The notes below the pieces were generated by a model. It was given only the letters and a program-made list of their open reading frames with translations, did not search any database and was not told where the DNA came from. This document shows, piece after piece, positions 40,793 to 47,911 of a stretch of DNA of 64,000 nucleotides. Made by a program: the position numbers and the translations under genes. This DNA comes from Helicobacter monodelphidis (GTDB lineage: Bacteria; Campylobacterota; Campylobacteria; Campylobacterales; Helicobacteraceae), in NCBI RefSeq assembly GCF_003288845.1, contig NZ_NHYN01000008.1, positions 1-64,000 on the forward strand. The letters are read 5' to 3'. Each line of letters starts with the position of its first letter. Within the stretch, counting starts at the first letter, position 1.

Positions 40793-42268
40793 TTATTCCT
40801 CTAGCCAATCAACTTGAATTTGTAATTCCTGCGGAATAGCCAACTTATTAATCGCTTCACGTGCAAGATAAGGATCTTGTTGTGTGCAAATCACTAACAC
40901 CCCGTGCTGATATTTAAAATCAACATTTTGTAAGTAGGTAGCAAGAATTTCTGCAATCGCTAAAATTATACTTAGCCAGTAAACCACATCATAAGATGGA
41001 ACTAAAGAAGCAACTTTTTCATAACGTGCAACATTCGGTGGCTTTTTACTTCCATACGATTCAACAAGCATAGAGATTAAAATCCTATCCGCATGCGTAA
41101 AACCATAATTTAAACCATTTACCAAAAAATAACCCCCATGCTTATGATTTTGATAAAAATTTAATGCTGTTCCAATATTCAATAATCGTGCTGCACTTTT
41201 TAAATGAAATCGATAAGATTCATTGACTTGATGTAGTAAATATAAAACATCAAACAATCTTAACGCATAGGACGCAAGACGTTTTGTCCGTACATCCTGC
41301 AAAGAAAAACGATCAACAAGGCTACGAATACTTGGATTAAATCCTTTAGGAAATGTAAAATGGGAGTTACGCAGTGCGTCCGTTAAAAATACACCCTCTC
41401 TAACCCCAACACCACTTATCACAATTTCTGTTGCCTCAAAATGTTTCAATAGGGTACTAAAAATCAATGCACCGCCTCGAATATTATCAAAACGATCTTC
41501 ACTAATACCCAAATCTACTAGCTCCTGAGTGTCACACGCTTCATAAACCTGTCTAAAGAAACCTTGATGAGATTCTACATTATATTCAAATGCATGAAGG
41601 GTACTCAGAGGGTACTCTTCTCTCTCCATAATTGCCTTAGAAAGTGCACGAATTGTTCCACCAATTCCAAAAATACGCTTCCCTTTAAAAGAATAAGGAA
41701 TTTTTTGCATTTGCCCCTGAATAAAAGTTAACATCTCATGGATAGGCATATTTTTATCAAAAAATAACTCTTTTAAACGAATCGTACCAAGATCAAGAGA
41801 AATTAAATCTACAATTTTTCCATTTTGGATTAATGCACATTCACTTGAACCACCACCAATATCAATAGTTACGCCTTCATCATAAGGTAAAAGATTCAGT
41901 GCTGCAACTGCACCATAAAATGCCTCCCTTTCCCCAGTGATAATTTTTATATTCAAGCCCAGACATGAACGCACCAATGCAAGAAATTCCCCACGATTAG
42001 GGGCATCTCTTAATGCACTTGTTGCTACACATAAAATCTTCCTGGCTCCCACTTCATGGGCAATTTTCAAAAAACCCCTTAAAGCACAAATCGCCCTTTC
42101 AATCGCTTCTTTTTGTAAATATCCACCATTTTGATAGCTATTTTCAGATATACGCACACGACTTTTTCTCTCCTCAATCAGATAAAAACCATAGCGACTC
42201 GTCTTCTTAAAAATTGCCATTCTTGCTGAATTCGAACCAATGTCAATCACTGCAGTTATTTTTGCCAT
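40793..42268 (-). CDS. ppx: Exopolyphosphatase / guanosine pentaphosphate phosphatase
   Basis: A 491-aa ASKHA-fold phosphatase. It shows DIGSNSARMAIF (about 7-18), CVATSALRDAPN, and IDIGGGSSECALI; a C-terminal HD-like helical domain follows. It can hydrolyse polyphosphate or convert pppGpp to ppGpp; sequence alone does not separate GppA from Ppx. Its start overlaps the fdxA stop by one base. Confidence 0.9.
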   Translation of the reverse strand: MAKITAVIDIGSNSARMAIFKKTSRYGFYLIEERKSRVRISENSYQNGGYLQKEAIERAICALRGFLKIAHEVGARKILCVATSALRDAPNRGEFLALVRSCLGLNIKIITGEREAFYGAVAALNLLPYDEGVTIDIGGGSSECALIQNGKIVDLISLDLGTIRLKELFFDKNMPIHEMLTFIQGQMQKIPYSFKGKRIFGIGGTIRALSKAIMEREEYPLSTLHAFEYNVESHQGFFRQVYEACDTQELVDLGISEDRFDNIRGGALIFSTLLKHFEATEIVISGVGVREGVFLTDALRNSHFTFPKGFNPSIRSLVDRFSLQDVRTKRLASYALRLFDVLYLLHQVNESYRFHLKSAARLLNIGTALNFYQNHKHGGYFLVNGLNYGFTHADRILISMLVESYGSKKPPNVARYEKVASLVPSYDVVYWLSIILAIAEILATYLQNVDFKYQHGVLVICTQQDPYLAREAINKLAIPQELQIQVDWLEE

Positions 42269-42519
42269 TACTCTTCTTTCTGGAGTTGTTCATATTTATA
42301 TTTTAATTCTTCGATACTTTCAACATTATCAGGGTCAGGAATCAATGCATCTTTAGGACATACAGGAACACACGAAGGTTCATCATCATAACCTACGCAT
42401 TCTGTGCAACGATCAGGGTCAATAATATAATAGGGATCTTCAACCTCAATTGCATCATTAGGACACTCCTCACGACATTCATCGCACGCAATACATTCTT
42501 CTGTAATCATTAATGCCAT
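42268..42519 (-). CDS. fdxA: 2[4Fe-4S] ferredoxin
   Basis: An 83-aa low-potential electron carrier. The first cluster motif is CIACDECREECP (Cys 9, 12, 15, 19). The second is CTEC followed by an insertion before CVPVCP, the pattern of Allochromatium-type ferredoxins. A charged C-terminal helix follows. It heads the fdxA-ppx-waaC-lpxL operon. A physiological partner could be OorDABC, encoded at the other end of the window. Confidence 0.93.
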   Translation of the reverse strand: MALMITEECIACDECREECPNDAIEVEDPYYIIDPDRCTECVGYDDEPSCVPVCPKDALIPDPDNVESIEELKYKYEQLQKEE

Positions 42520-42618
42520 TTATTGTACTCCACTTTTAAAATTAGCCTATATTTCTACCCTAAAAATTCTTAAAATCTTATTTAATGAAAAAATTTTATC
42601 CCTTAAGCCTTGTTGGAT

Positions 42619-42624
42619 TATAAT
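42619..42624 (+). promoter_or_regulatory. -10 box upstream of the R-M locus
   Basis: TATAAT in GGATTATAATACAG. It precedes a 13-codon mini-ORF and then the R-M gene. If the region at 42661 is a duplicated purB start, this may be the original purB promoter. Confidence 0.5.
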
Positions 42625-42660
42625 ACAGCATTCAAAAACAAATCAGCCTCAAAACAGTGA

Positions 42661-42727
42661 TGATTAATTTAATGGAGATTCTACAATGATAGAGCAACAC
42701 GCACAAGAAAAAATAAAAAATTCTTAG
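42661..42727 (+). repeat. Diverged copy of the purB 5' end, with 13-codon ORF
   Basis: TGATTAATTTAATGGAG, then ATGATAGAGC (ATG at 42686), parallels TGATTTAATTTAAAGGAG and ATGATAGAAC in front of and inside purB (46556-46590). The short frame (MIEQHAQEKIKNS) matches the purB N-terminus (MIERYARKEMKAL) at 6 of 13 positions, with most of the rest conservative. I read this as a decayed left copy of a target duplication. It might also act as a leader peptide for the R-M gene. Confidence 0.45.
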
Positions 42728-42755
42728 TTTATAAAATTAAGAAAAAGGTTAAATA

Positions 42756-45700
42756 ATGGAATTTCTAGGCACTTATCTTAATACAATTCAAAATATCACA
42801 CTACAAGACAAAGAACATACACACCGCACGTATTTACAAAACTTTTTAAACTCCATTAAAGAAGCTTTAGCTACCAACAATAAGGCTTTGTCCAGCCTTA
42901 CTATTAGACACGAACCAAACAATGACAAAGAGGGTAGAGGTGCACCAGATTTTATGATTTTATTTCAAGGCTTAAGTATTGGCTACATTGAAAATAAACG
43001 TGTAAATACGGATTTAGATTCTGTGGTACAAAGTGAACAGATTGAAAAATATCTTCAATTGAATGATAATCTAATACTAACGGATTATTTGCACTTTTGT
43101 CGCGTGTGCAAAAATGAAAAAAACAAAGCACAAATTGTGCAAGGGTGTAGAATCTGTGAGCTTAGCCAAATCAAAGCCACACTTAAAAGTAAGCAAATTT
43201 TAGAATCCAAAACACAAGAATTGCTAGATTTTTTTAAAATCTTCTTTGATGCAAGTAAAATAAAACCTATCATCACGGCTTCAGAATTTGCTCAAAGCTT
43301 AGCACTTCGCACACAGATTCTAAAAGCTACTTTGATAGAAAATATCGACAATATGCACATTGCAAACCTTTATGAAACTTTCAAAACTCAACTCTATCAA
43401 GAGCTAGATTTTAATGACTTTTGCGATTCTTTTGCACAGACGTTGACTTATAGTCTTTTTCTCGCAAAGCTAAACATCACAGAAGATAAAGAGCTTGATT
43501 TATATAATGCAAAAAAGTTTATCCCTAAATCATTCCCGCTTATTCGTGCAATGAGCGATTTTCTCAACCAACTTGAGGATTTAGATTCTATTAAGTGGTT
43601 ATTAGAAGAAATTATCCACATCAGCAATCATATTGACATTGCAAGTATTATCCGTGAACTTAATCAAATGAACGAAAAAGATTTACTCGGAAACTATACA
43701 ACTGCTTTTACACACAAAGACCCTTATTTGCATTTTTACGAGACATTCCTAAGCAAATACGACCCAAAATTGCGTGAGATTCGTGGGGTATATTATACTC
43801 CTATAAGCGTGGTAAGCTTTATTATTAATGCAATAGATTTCATATTAAAAGCTGATTTTGCACTACCAAAAGGCTTGAGTGCGAGTTTAGAAAACCAAAA
43901 TATTACCCTTTTAGACTTCGCCACAGGCACAGGGACATTTTTGCTAGAAAGTTTTAGAAAAGCATTGGAACCCACATCTAAAAATAGTCCTAAATATGAC
44001 CCCAAAAACTTGCTTAATAAATTCTTTGGTTTTGAATTTTTAATCGCTCCTTATATTATTGCACATTTGCGACTTTCTCAAAGTTTCAAAGAAGAGTTTA
44101 ACACTCCCATAGAGGACAACGAGAGATTAGGAATCTATCTTACAAACACACTTTATAGTAAAGATATTAAAGCAGAACAAAACGAAAAAGCAAATCTATT
44201 TGGTGGAATCCCAGAACTTGTGGGGGAAGCAATAGCTGCACAAAAAACTAAAGAAAAAGAGATTTTAATTATTACAGGTAATCCACCCTATAACGGTGCA
44301 AGTGCAAATAAGGGTTTATATGAAAAAGAAGTGCGAAATACCTATAAAAAACCTTTAGAGATTCTAGGTTCTCCTGTGACATTTATCAAAAATGGCAAGA
44401 TAGAAAAAGAGAAAAACCCAAAATGGTTACTTGATGATTATGTAAAATTTATTTGTTTTGCAGAATCTAAGATTCAAAAGCAAGGAAGTGGAATCTTTGC
44501 TTTTATTTCTAATAATAGCTTTTTGGATAACCCCACATTTCGCGGAATGCGCTATTCTTTGCTAAATACTTTTGATAAAATTTATATTTTAGATTTGCAT
44601 GGCAATGCAAGGAAAAAGGAGTTATGCCCTGATGGCAGTAAAGATGATAATGTATTTGATATTATGCAAGGGGTAAGCATTAATGTATTTGTGAAACACT
44701 CTTGCCATTCCAGCTTCCCCATTGGTCATTCTGAGGCTAAAGCCGAAGAATCTAAGAAGCATTCTAGCAAAGATATTTCGGCTTTTTCAAAGCCTCAATA
44801 TGATAAGGCGGTTTGTCATTCTGAACGTAGCGAAGAATCTAAAACCAAAAAGCCACTTGCGTCAGTCTATCATTATAACCTTTATGGCAAACGCAAAGAC
44901 AAATATAACTTTCTTTATGAAAATACTTTAGATTCCATTAAGTGGAGCAAACTCTCTCCCAAAAAGCCTTTTTATCTCTTTATCCCGCAAAATGAGAGTT
45001 TAAGAGAGGAATACGATAAGGGCTGGAGTGTAAAGGATATTTTTAGAATAAGCGGGGTTGGAATCTGCTCTAAAAGAGATAATATTGTTTTTCACAATAC
45101 TAAAGAAAGTCTAAAAGTTATGCTAAAAGATTTTATCACAAAATCAAAAGAGGAATTATATAGAATCTATAATATAGGGGAAGATTCAAGAGATTGGAAA
45201 CTAGATTCTGCAATAGAATCTATTAAAGAAAATAAAGATAATTTAGATGATTTTATAATGCAATGCCATTATCGCCCTTTTGATTATCGTTGGACTTATT
45301 ACATTAATAAATCACGCGCGTTTATGGCTTATCCTGTTTATGAAGTTTTTCAGCATTTTTTAGATAACGATAATGTAGCTTTACTTGCTTCAAGACAAAG
45401 TAGTGCTGTGGGCGATGATAAAATCAGCACTATTGCTATTAGCGATAAAATGGTAGATTTAAATTTCTACCGCAGGGGTGGGGAAGAAGTTATGCCTCTT
45501 TATCTCAAAAATGAGGATTTACAATCAAATAGAATAGAAAACTTCACACAAGAATTTAGAGATTTTATAGATTCTAAATATCAATGGGATAATGAGGATT
45601 ATAAAAATAATCCTGAATTCTTTATTATTACCCCATGTCATTCTGAGGCTAAAGCCGAAGAATCTAAAAAAGATTCCAACAAAGAGATATTTCGCTCTGC

Positions 45701-45968
45701 TCAATATGACAAAGAACAACACAATAACCATAAATTCACCCTCACACCAGAAGCAATACTAGGCTATATCTATGCAGTGCTTTTCCATAAAGACTATAGA
45801 GAAAAATACCTTGACTTTCTTAAAATCGACTTCCCAAAGATTCCCTTTGTAGAATCTAAAGAGAAATTTTTAATCCTAAGTGCGTTAGGGCAAAAATTAA
45901 TCTCGGTGCATTTAATGCAAGATTCAGCAACAAGAGAGAGAGAGAGAGAGAGAGAGAGCAGAAAATAA
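42756..45968 (+). CDS. Type IIG restriction-modification enzyme, phase-variable, off at its 3' end
   Basis: A 1070-aa fused nuclease and adenine-N6 methyltransferase. The nuclease head has a PD-ExK site: APDF (Asp65) and YIENK (Glu79, Lys81). The methylase core follows: YYTPISVVSFI, motif I LLDFATGTGTF (about 386-396), and motif IV NPPY (509-512). A specificity region ending in EEVMPLYLKNE comes next. No helicase motifs are present, so it is not type ISP. Two stretches (about 657-705 and 961-985) are translated dispersed repeats. The frame ends just after an (AG)13 tract as repeated RE residues, before the conserved family tail, which lies at 46269-46568. Methylase function may survive truncation; this is unknown. 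Confidence 0.85.
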   Translation: MEFLGTYLNTIQNITLQDKEHTHRTYLQNFLNSIKEALATNNKALSSLTIRHEPNNDKEGRGAPDFMILFQGLSIGYIENKRVNTDLDSVVQSEQIEKYLQLNDNLILTDYLHFCRVCKNEKNKAQIVQGCRICELSQIKATLKSKQILESKTQELLDFFKIFFDASKIKPIITASEFAQSLALRTQILKATLIENIDNMHIANLYETFKTQLYQELDFNDFCDSFAQTLTYSLFLAKLNITEDKELDLYNAKKFIPKSFPLIRAMSDFLNQLEDLDSIKWLLEEIIHISNHIDIASIIRELNQMNEKDLLGNYTTAFTHKDPYLHFYETFLSKYDPKLREIRGVYYTPISVVSFIINAIDFILKADFALPKGLSASLENQNITLLDFATGTGTFLLESFRKALEPTSKNSPKYDPKNLLNKFFGFEFLIAPYIIAHLRLSQSFKEEFNTPIEDNERLGIYLTNTLYSKDIKAEQNEKANLFGGIPELVGEAIAAQKTKEKEILIITGNPPYNGASANKGLYEKEVRNTYKKPLEILGSPVTFIKNGKIEKEKNPKWLLDDYVKFICFAESKIQKQGSGIFAFISNNSFLDNPTFRGMRYSLLNTFDKIYILDLHGNARKKELCPDGSKDDNVFDIMQGVSINVFVKHSCHSSFPIGHSEAKAEESKKHSSKDISAFSKPQYDKAVCHSERSEESKTKKPLASVYHYNLYGKRKDKYNFLYENTLDSIKWSKLSPKKPFYLFIPQNESLREEYDKGWSVKDIFRISGVGICSKRDNIVFHNTKESLKVMLKDFITKSKEELYRIYNIGEDSRDWKLDSAIESIKENKDNLDDFIMQCHYRPFDYRWTYYINKSRAFMAYPVYEVFQHFLDNDNVALLASRQSSAVGDDKISTIAISDKMVDLNFYRRGGEEVMPLYLKNEDLQSNRIENFTQEFRDFIDSKYQWDNEDYKNNPEFFIITPCHSEAKAEESKKDSNKEIFRSAQYDKEQHNNHKFTLTPEAILGYIYAVLFHKDYREKYLDFLKIDFPKIPFVESKEKFLILSALGQKLISVHLMQDSATRERERERESRK
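44726..44803 (+). repeat. Palindromic dispersed repeat, in frame inside the R-M gene
   Basis: The left arm at 44726-44753 begins TCATTCTGAGGCTAAAGCC. The right arm at 44771-44803 begins AGATATTTCGGCTTTTTC and ends CTCAATATGA. The right arm is largely the reverse complement of the left, so the unit can fold into a long hairpin. It encodes HSEAKAEESKK and adds no stop. Confidence 0.75.
44816..44840 (+). repeat. Single-arm dispersed repeat, in frame inside the R-M gene
   Basis: A 25-base copy beginning TCATTCTGAACGTAGCG, encoding CHSERSEESK, 12 bases after the preceding unit. Its two ends (ATTCT and AGAAT) pair. This peptide pattern is a known hallmark of short dispersed repeats read through by ORFs in several bacteria. 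Confidence 0.7.
45638..45709 (+). repeat. Second palindromic dispersed repeat, in frame inside the R-M gene
   Basis: The left arm at 45638-45665 is identical over 28 bases to the one at 44726. The right arm at 45685-45709 (AGATATTTCGCTCTGC...) differs in its core and matches the CHSERSEES type inverted. It encodes CHSEAKAEESKKDSNKE and lies in frame. Confidence 0.75.
45933..45958 (+). repeat. (AG)13 simple sequence repeat, phase-variation tract
   Basis: Thirteen uninterrupted AG units near the 3' end of the R-M ORF, translated as alternating Arg-Glu. With 13 units the frame stops at TAA 45966-45968. One unit more, or two fewer, would continue into the frame read at 45969-46275. Such tracts mutate by slipped-strand mispairing in Helicobacter and Campylobacter. 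Confidence 0.9.
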
Positions 45969-45969
45969 T

Positions 45970-46275
45970 GAGAACAAATCTCAATATTGGGCTGGTGCTT
46001 TGCAGACAAGTAGTACGTCAAGCATTCAGCCACAGCTTCATAGTATATTCGATAATGGAGAGTTGTTACATTTCAGACACAACCAGAGAGATAAATTATC
46101 TCTTTCCGCTCTATCTAAAGGCTTAAAAATGCAAAATATAGGTTTAGTTTGTGATAGAGGTTCTAAATTGCAAGAGATTAATAACATTTTTATTACTCAA
46201 AATATTATTGATTTGCATTTGGTAGGTAGCGGAAGCTATATTTTCCCACTCTATCTTAAGGAGAAGTTATGCTAG
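45970..46275 (+). pseudogene. Out-of-frame partial specificity domain of a type IIG enzyme
   Basis: In the second frame the sequence reads on through QYWAGALQ to MQNIGLVCDRGSKLQEINN, then DLHLVGSGSYIFPLYLKE, ending at TAG 46273-46275. This matches the second half of a type IIG target-recognition domain and is equivalent to the stretch ending EEVMPLYLKNE in the ORF upstream, but is a different sequence type. The upstream gene already has its own version, so this looks like an extra or donated half-domain. A TTG at 46000 could start it, but there is no ribosome site, and it would be a fragment. Confidence 0.65.
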
Positions 46276-46568
46276 ATTCTAACATTGGTAAGCCACTTTA
46301 TAAAGATACAAAAAACAAAAATTTAACCATTATCAAGCCTAACTATAAAGAATCTGAACAAAAGCTTTTTGTTAATGAAACATTGTATTTTGATAATGTA
46401 AGTAAAGAAGTATGGGAATACAAAATCGGAGGTTATCAAGTTTTGGATAAATATCTAAAAAGCCATAAAAATGAAAAGATAGATTTTGAGCATTTCCAGT
46501 GCATTATTCAAACTTTACATAAAAGCTTGGATTTGGAGCGAGAAATTGTTAAAATTGATTTAATTTAA
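46269..46568 (+). pseudogene. Detached C-terminal tail of the type IIG enzyme
   Basis: A 99-codon frame in the same phase as the main R-M ORF. It starts MLDSNIGKPLYKD, where the main ORF has HLMQDS, and carries the family tail EVWEYKIGGYQVLDKYLKSHK. Normally this follows the specificity region directly. AAGGAG five bases before its ATG, which overlaps the preceding stop, would allow translation as a separate small protein. It ends 11 bases before purB. It is either a remnant or a split subunit. Confidence 0.65.
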
Positions 46569-46579
46569 AGGAGTTAAAT

Positions 46580-47911
46580 ATGATAGAACGATATGCAAGA
46601 AAGGAAATGAAAGCCCTTTGGGATATGAATGCAAAGTACAGTGCATGGCTAGAGGTAGAAAAGGCATTAGTGCGAGGCTGGAATCAACTTGGACTAATTC
46701 CAGATTCTGATTGTGAGAAAATCTGTAAAAATGCAAAATTTGACATTGCACGAATTGATGAAATAGAGGCAGTTACAAAGCATGATCTTATCGCATTCAC
46801 AACAAGTGTCGCTGAGTCTTTAGGGGAAGAAAGTCGATGGGTGCACTATGGAATTACTTCGAGTGATTGTATTGACACGGCGGTGGCATTACAAATGCGT
46901 GATTCTTTGAAAATCATTATTGAAGATATAAAGATTTTAAGAAAAATACTCAAAAAACGCGCTTATGAACATAAGGACACATTAATGGTGGGGCGCAGTC
47001 ATGGGATTCATGGAGAACCCATTACCTTTGGCTTGGTTTTAGCAATTTGGTATGATGAGATGGGGCGCCATTTAAATGCCCTGCAATCAACCTTAGAAGT
47101 CATTAGCGTGGGGCAATTGAGTGGGGCTATGGGAAATCTTGCACACACCCCCATCGAATTAGAAGAAATTGTTTGCTCTATGCTTGGATTAAAACCTGCG
47201 AGGGTTAGTAATCAGGTTATACAACGCGATAGCTATGCACGATTAATGAGTGATTTAGCACTTCTAGCTAGTAGTTGCGAAAAGATTGCTGTTGAAATTA
47301 GACACCTACAACGAACAGAAGTTTATGAAGCAGAAGAATACTTTAGCAAGGGGCAAAAAGGAAGTTCTGCAATGCCACATAAACGCAATCCAGTTCTAAG
47401 TGAAAATATTACAGGGCTATGCAGAATAATCCGCTCCTATGCTATTCCGGCAATGGAAAATGTTGCACTATGGCACGAAAGGGATATTAGCCATTCCAGT
47501 GTGGAGAGATTTATTTTGCCAGATGGATTCATCACGACAGATTTTATGCTTCATCGCTTAAGCGGATTGCTTGAACAGCTTGTGGTTTACCCCAAAAATA
47601 TGATAAAAAATCTTAACCTAACTGGAGGGCTTGTTTTTTCACAAAGAATTCTACTGGAACTTCCAAAAAGAGGTGTATCGCGTGAAGATTCCTATAAAAT
47701 TGTGCAACGCAATGCAATGAAAGTATGGGCGGACTTACAAGAAGGTAAAGCGGTTTTGAACGCAAACGATGAAAGTCTATATTTACAATATCTCCTTGAA
47801 GACAAAGAGCTCGTGGAATATATCGGGCAAGACGCCATACGAGAATGTTTTCATGTACAATATTACACCAAAAATGTCGACGCTATTTTTAAGAGAGTAT
47901 TCGAAGTATAA
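46580..47911 (+). CDS. purB: Adenylosuccinate lyase
   Basis: Catalyses two purine steps: SAICAR to AICAR, and adenylosuccinate to AMP. The product is 443 aa. It shows TSSDCIDTAVALQ, GRSHGIHGEPITFG, and the signature GSSAMPHKRNPVLSEN. AAAGGAG precedes the ATG. With the R-M locus inserted upstream, no clear promoter of its own is seen, so expression probably depends on readthrough. Confidence 0.96.
   Translation: MIERYARKEMKALWDMNAKYSAWLEVEKALVRGWNQLGLIPDSDCEKICKNAKFDIARIDEIEAVTKHDLIAFTTSVAESLGEESRWVHYGITSSDCIDTAVALQMRDSLKIIIEDIKILRKILKKRAYEHKDTLMVGRSHGIHGEPITFGLVLAIWYDEMGRHLNALQSTLEVISVGQLSGAMGNLAHTPIELEEIVCSMLGLKPARVSNQVIQRDSYARLMSDLALLASSCEKIAVEIRHLQRTEVYEAEEYFSKGQKGSSAMPHKRNPVLSENITGLCRIIRSYAIPAMENVALWHERDISHSSVERFILPDGFITTDFMLHRLSGLLEQLVVYPKNMIKNLNLTGGLVFSQRILLELPKRGVSREDSYKIVQRNAMKVWADLQEGKAVLNANDESLYLQYLLEDKELVEYIGQDAIRECFHVQYYTKNVDAIFKRVFEV

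Follow-up and report, generated by a model that had tools for sequence, protein, structure and literature searches.

An AG repeat as a probable three-way selector of recognition modules in a type IIG restriction-methylase of Helicobacter

Background

Phase-variable restriction systems are mostly viewed as on/off switches or as the outcome of allele shuffling by recombination. A dinucleotide repeat near the 3′ end of a restriction-modification gene in Helicobacter monodelphidis raises the question of what slippage at this position would do to the enzyme: would it silence the protein, or give it another target? The gene lies in a window of 64,000 nucleotides (positions 1 to 64,000 of contig NZ_NHYN01000008.1, which is the whole stretch of DNA analyzed here), and all features described below are on its forward strand. 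Based on the sequence and on analogy with enzymes of H. pylori, we propose that the repeat is probably a three-position selector for the specificity of a type IIG restriction-methylase.

Results

An AG repeat in a type IIG gene

The ORF at 42756-45968 encodes 1070 amino acids. Judging by its sequence, the gene is a type IIG (IIL-like) restriction-methylase, that is, it has a methylase, a recognition domain and a nuclease in a single polypeptide. An earlier note on this DNA had assigned the gene to this type, and a match to the PADLOC model REase_MTase_IIG that covers most of the chain (E = 5e-292) bears this out. Pfam matches are to N6_Mtase (PF02384) and to positions 1-256 of Type_ISP_C (PF18135), and the order of domains is a nuclease-like N terminus, an N6-adenine methylase and the core of the target recognition domain (TRD). 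The methylase match starts near residue 326 of 1070. A PD...ExK-like motif, recognized by eye only, is located near residues 64-81. NCBIfam offered no usable name for the gene product, and Rfam had no match in 42000-47000.

An (AG)13 tract, 100% pure, occupies 45933-45958 and is in frame with this ORF, whose stop codon TAA (45966-45968) ends ten bases past the tract, just as the earlier note had read it. In a scan of both strands of the 1.99-Mb assembly, this was the sole run of eight or more AG units, and the tract is therefore far beyond what chance would produce. As in other contingency loci, the repeat unit is not a multiple of three and the run exceeds chance length; we infer that the tract slips in vivo. 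No second slippage tract was found in the gene. The earlier note was also right to place the switch near the 3′ end, which is where this slippage-prone, in-frame tract is found.

Three reading frames after the tract

The present stop defines one frame, here called A. One additional AG unit, or two fewer, leads into frame Y, whose tail (45958-46275) closes with TAG at 46273-46275. The earlier note had predicted that these changes would join the gene to a frame stopping at 46275, and its frame arithmetic was correct. One unit fewer, or two more, leads into frame X, whose tail (45959-46126) reads RTNLNIGLVLCRQ...LFPLYLKA* and closes with TAA at 46124-46126.

Frames X and Y, both distinct from the frame that ends at the present stop, each code for a module of ~45 residues that is homologous to a module in the enzyme's own TRD, module M. 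Because both of the frames without the early stop encode recognition modules, the switch would be three-way. The earlier note had recognized one alternative frame (Y) and missed the third (X), so that its two-way switch described only part of the locus.

A module profile with the pattern NIGLxxxRQ...FPLYL has three matches in the window: M (NVALLASRQ...MPLYL, 45372-45506), the core of X (NIGLVLCRQVVRQ...LFPLYL, 45983-46117) and the core of Y (NIGLVCDRGSKLQ...IFPLYL, 46135-46257). The scores of X (6e-20) and Y (1e-20) are partly so by construction, since the seed of the profile included these three modules of the window. Single-ORF enzymes in Brachyspira and in an order-level relative carry Y-like modules in the M slot that are 80-83% identical to the window's Y, and the M slot of a spirochaete single-ORF enzyme holds an X-like module with 64% identity to X of the window. 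X and Y thus represent alternative versions of one recognition module. An AlphaFold2 model of a Y-state homologue (protein P0004 of locus L028, using an alignment of eight sequences) has a similar strand pattern in M and Y, which carries no weight at its mean pLDDT of 41 and pTM of 0.34.

Before it reaches module Y, frame Y runs over X (45958-46134), and this stretch exhibits no amino-acid constraint. With the X protein and the local codon usage taken into account, the chance that frame Y would be free of stops over X is 0.009 in the window and 0.0006-0.11 in other loci; as the loci are related, these values are not to be multiplied. The earlier note had taken the whole frame to 46275 to be more type IIG protein. 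This holds for module Y, but the stretch at 45958-46134 is an unconstrained linker.

Conservation and selection in Helicobacteraceae

We searched 121 genomes of the family, one per species, with the ORF that follows the type IIG gene (the guide ORF, described below), and then read the loci. The tract, X and Y are present together in 21 Helicobacteraceae loci. In every one of these, frame A stops 0-5 codons after the tract, and X and Y are open to the end of the module. All three states occur among these relatives (assembled in state A in eight loci, X in four and Y in eight, with the remaining locus at a contig edge), and the state varies between species. The repeat unit is AG in ten loci, C in five, G in three, a tetranucleotide (GACA or ACAG) in two and a heptanucleotide (CATCAGG) in one. 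These units are 1, 2, 4 or 7 bases long, and a multiple of three was never found in the 21 loci. That different repeat units occupy the same place points to selection for slippage there.

Comparing only X modules of the same type, dN/dS of X in its own frame is 0.04-0.21 across loci, and mostly 0.10-0.16 in the window's comparisons. For Y it is mostly 0.02-0.15, with 0.02-0.04 for the core of the window's Y and higher values in G107, in which Y is frameshifted, and in a few closely related pairs. For the guide region the range is 0.08-0.27, and for the guide ORF of the window 0.09-0.19. Together with the lack of constraint in frame Y over X, this pattern indicates that X, Y and the guide are translated and useful, whereas in the Y linker only the open frame is preserved.

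The selection is hard to square with a decaying gene, in which an insertion would have split the C terminus and left the downstream pieces as remnants. Such decay would agree with the homologues in other genera, whose single ORF includes the guide, and with the loss of X or a frameshift in some loci (G103, G124, G018 and G107). However, X, Y and the guide have dN/dS values far under 1 in many species and the layout is identical in 21 loci, so we rejected the pseudogene explanation, which we consider extremely improbable.

Module X also moves between genomes. G033 and G111 are 100% identical upstream and 98% identical in Y, but only 57% identical in X, whereas G094 and G111 share 99% identity in X and just 89% upstream. 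X has therefore been swapped as a block between close relatives, and behaves as an exchangeable cassette. In loci L084 (G033), L085 (G111) and L083 (G094), the flanks of X on both sides are alike although X itself has been replaced, and at least three X types circulate.

Such exchange might also be expected if X and Y were silent donors whose sequence replaces M through gene conversion, with their frames being incidental; the homology of M, X and Y and their conserved ends would fit as well. A donor, however, needs neither an open frame, nor this arrangement of frames, nor a slippage tract, yet both frames are kept open and the tract is kept with different units. Moreover, the corresponding added domain in H. 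pylori (CTRD) works as an attached domain (PMC3936762). We rejected silent donors because of the open frames and the retained tract, and rate them as highly unlikely. Selection of M, X or Y by frame is the explanation that we pursue below.

Several loci depart from the common layout. Reduced loci in G124 (L087), G018 (L093) and G103 (L078) keep Y and the guide ORF and have lost X; in G124 and G018 the slippage tract is gone as well. In G017, almost nothing but G fills the first ~170 bases of the contig, at the position of the tract (L089, 1-170); a long poly-G was probably misassembled here. Poly-G tracts also occur in or near the 5′ part of homologues, at 6126-6136 of L028 and in the loci of G129, G019, G109 and G108, where they are probably a separate on/off switch. 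When read from its ATG, the main ORF of L028 lacks the N terminus in the assembled state.

A recognition domain split at the tract

A complete TRD in the same chain is typical of this class of enzyme, and the window enzyme does not have one. The guide ORF at 46269-46568 (99 amino acids) matches positions 255-320 of PF18135 (E 7e-13) and 977-1064 of the PADLOC IIG model. Since the main ORF accounts for positions 1-256 of PF18135 and the next ORF for 255-320, the tract marks the point at which the TRD is divided, and with its guide on a separate ORF the window enzyme is a variant of the type IIG (IIL-like) restriction-methylases. In an alignment with LlaBIII and LlaGI, the cut falls near the boundary between the core and guide subdomains, whose limits were taken from PMC4872093. 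According to that study, the core reads the DNA, while the guide, which has no role in target recognition, is packed onto the core and directs the DNA.

No tract length fuses the guide ORF to the type IIG gene. The earlier note had expected the switch to change the specificity or the C-terminal part of the enzyme; the recognition part is indeed what is switched, but the natural C terminus is this separate ORF. In Brachyspira and other genera, the guide is fused to the rest of the homologue in one continuous chain, and outside Helicobacteraceae the guide is mostly within an open frame of ~1000 codons. No unit of tract, X and Y was present outside Helicobacteraceae in the loci fetched (one strand, ~1.5 kb around each match). 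Extra fragments of the guide region occur in L074 (G006) and L100 (G128), either ~3 kb from the main copy or alone.

The position of the guide suggests another way in which the locus might work. In the window, the guide ATG overlaps the stop of frame Y, and in nearly all loci with a separate guide no more than about 10 bases lie between the guide start and the Y stop. The guide is also the best conserved TRD subdomain among Type ISP enzymes (PMC4872093). The switch could then be mainly on/off, with one state (for instance Y) making enough guide and states A and X being off. Against this, the guide ORF has its own start codon and its own ribosome-binding site, AAGGAG at 46258-46263, within the end of frame Y. 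Strong purifying selection on the X protein, and the exchange of X cassettes, would make no sense if state X were off, and the A state is active in H. pylori (PMC3936762). A mainly on/off switch thus appears unlikely to us, and a choice between active specificities is the reading that we retain.

In-gene repeats and origin

A palindromic repeat, CATTCTGAGGCTAAAGCCGAAGAATCTAA, occurs twice in the gene, exactly and in frame, at 44727-44755 and 45639-45667. A variant, GTCATTCTGAACGTAGCGAAGAATCT, is in frame at 44815-44840. Elsewhere in the genome we found no copies of these repeats save one weak match on another contig, while the variant has 10-15 copies in the relatives G019, G090, G092 and G129, which belong to other genera. 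That the repeats are rare in the rest of the genome and abundant in other genera suggests lateral acquisition, and another Helicobacter lineage is the probable source of the gene. The in-frame copies further suggest that this repeat family is tolerated in protein linkers. The guide ORF had no match in the same-genus genomes G001-G004, and no copy of the enzyme adjoins purB in G002, G003 or G004.

Comparison with known systems

The closest known systems are H. pylori JHP1272 (Hpy99XIV) and HP1353-HP1354 (HpyAXVI). As described by Krebes et al. (PMC3936762), a second poly-C tract in these genes adds a 94-residue CTRD that resembles part of the TRD, and experiments showed that addition of this Y-type module by frameshifting alters specificity at two bases, -2 and -1. 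Frame Y after the second poly-C tract has 91-96 residues in genomes of the H. pylori group, and its length of 94 in G059 matches the published CTRD. The window's Y and the H. pylori Y are 61% identical.

Like those enzymes, the window enzyme is a single-chain restriction-methylase with a slippage tract near the 3′ end; tract length decides whether a domain is added, and that domain is homologous to the enzyme's own TRD. The arrangements differ in that the H. pylori poly-C tract follows a fused guide, whereas the dinucleotide tract in the window precedes a separate guide ORF. In addition, only one added domain was described for H. pylori, whereas the window has two alternative modules in overlapping frames. 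What is new relative to the H. pylori CTRD enzymes is therefore the pair of alternative modules in overlapping frames, a tract whose repeat unit can be longer than one base, and a guide encoded by its own ORF.

A module X is also found in the H. pylori group, in a ~50-residue tail of the third frame. Loci L095, L094, L097, L099 and L101 have this third-frame module, NIALILSRQAK...FPLFC, after the second poly-C tract. We found no description of a third frame X beside the CTRD in the open-licence literature, including the consulted sections of PMC3936762.

Other systems share some of these properties. In the BcgI-like HpyUM032XIII (PMC4450513), and in the Type I system NgoAV that is cited there, slippage switches specificity and not activity, as proposed for the window. 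However, the poly-G tract of HpyUM032XIII joins or splits S1 and S2, which are whole TRDs of a separate specificity subunit, giving two states, and neither system is a type IIG single chain with alternative modules. The CjeFIII-type enzyme of Campylobacter jejuni NCTC11168 (PMC4889913) is likewise a type IIG restriction-methylase whose variation depends on a repeat tract, although the abstract of that paper describes it as a switch of expression and methylation, and not as a choice of appended modules. The Type ISP enzymes LlaGI and LlaBIII (PMC4872093) have a PF18135 TRD with core and guide subdomains, as the window enzyme does. Unlike it, they are unbroken chains that also carry a helicase-like ATPase between nuclease and methylase; the Pfam and PADLOC matches of the window enzyme include no helicase family, which sets it apart from Type ISP.

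Discussion

A slip by one AG unit would alter the frame in which the ribosome exits the tract. With 13, 16, ... units (state A), the protein would end just past the tract, and the built-in M would read the DNA. With 14, 11, ... units (state Y), the linker and module Y would be added, and with 12, 15, ... units (state X), module X. Since one unit more than the present number leads to Y and one less to X, each state is a single step from the other two.

Within the TRD, M is likely responsible for reading the bases beside the methylated adenine, and an attached X or Y would displace or substitute it, such that methylation and cutting would both shift to another target. By analogy with the H. pylori CTRD, state Y is predicted to recognize C at -2 and any base at -1; X presumably reads a different combination. 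We assume that the guide joins in trans from its own ORF in all states and is best translated in state Y; translational coupling between Y and the guide is probable. The earlier note's expectation that the switch would alter the recognition part, and not silence the enzyme, fits the behavior of the H. pylori homologues (PMC3936762), and also the different states of homologues in other Helicobacter. We infer that the specificity of the window enzyme changes in this way.

A wider statement also seems reasonably likely: that one tract picks M, X or Y, that this unit has been kept across Helicobacteraceae with varied repeat units, that X can be exchanged as a cassette, that most species make the guide as a polypeptide of its own, and that the "two-state" enzymes of H. 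pylori are three-state too. H. pylori strains in the X frame are then predicted to show a third type IIG motif, which would retain the outer bases of the Hpy99XIV/HpyAXVI motifs and have other bases beside the methylated A.

The modules may also represent natural, portable units of base recognition for enzyme engineering. If the proposal is true, the same DNA is used in all three reading frames, and through a single slip a cell would pass between three methylomes, and likewise between three restriction barriers.
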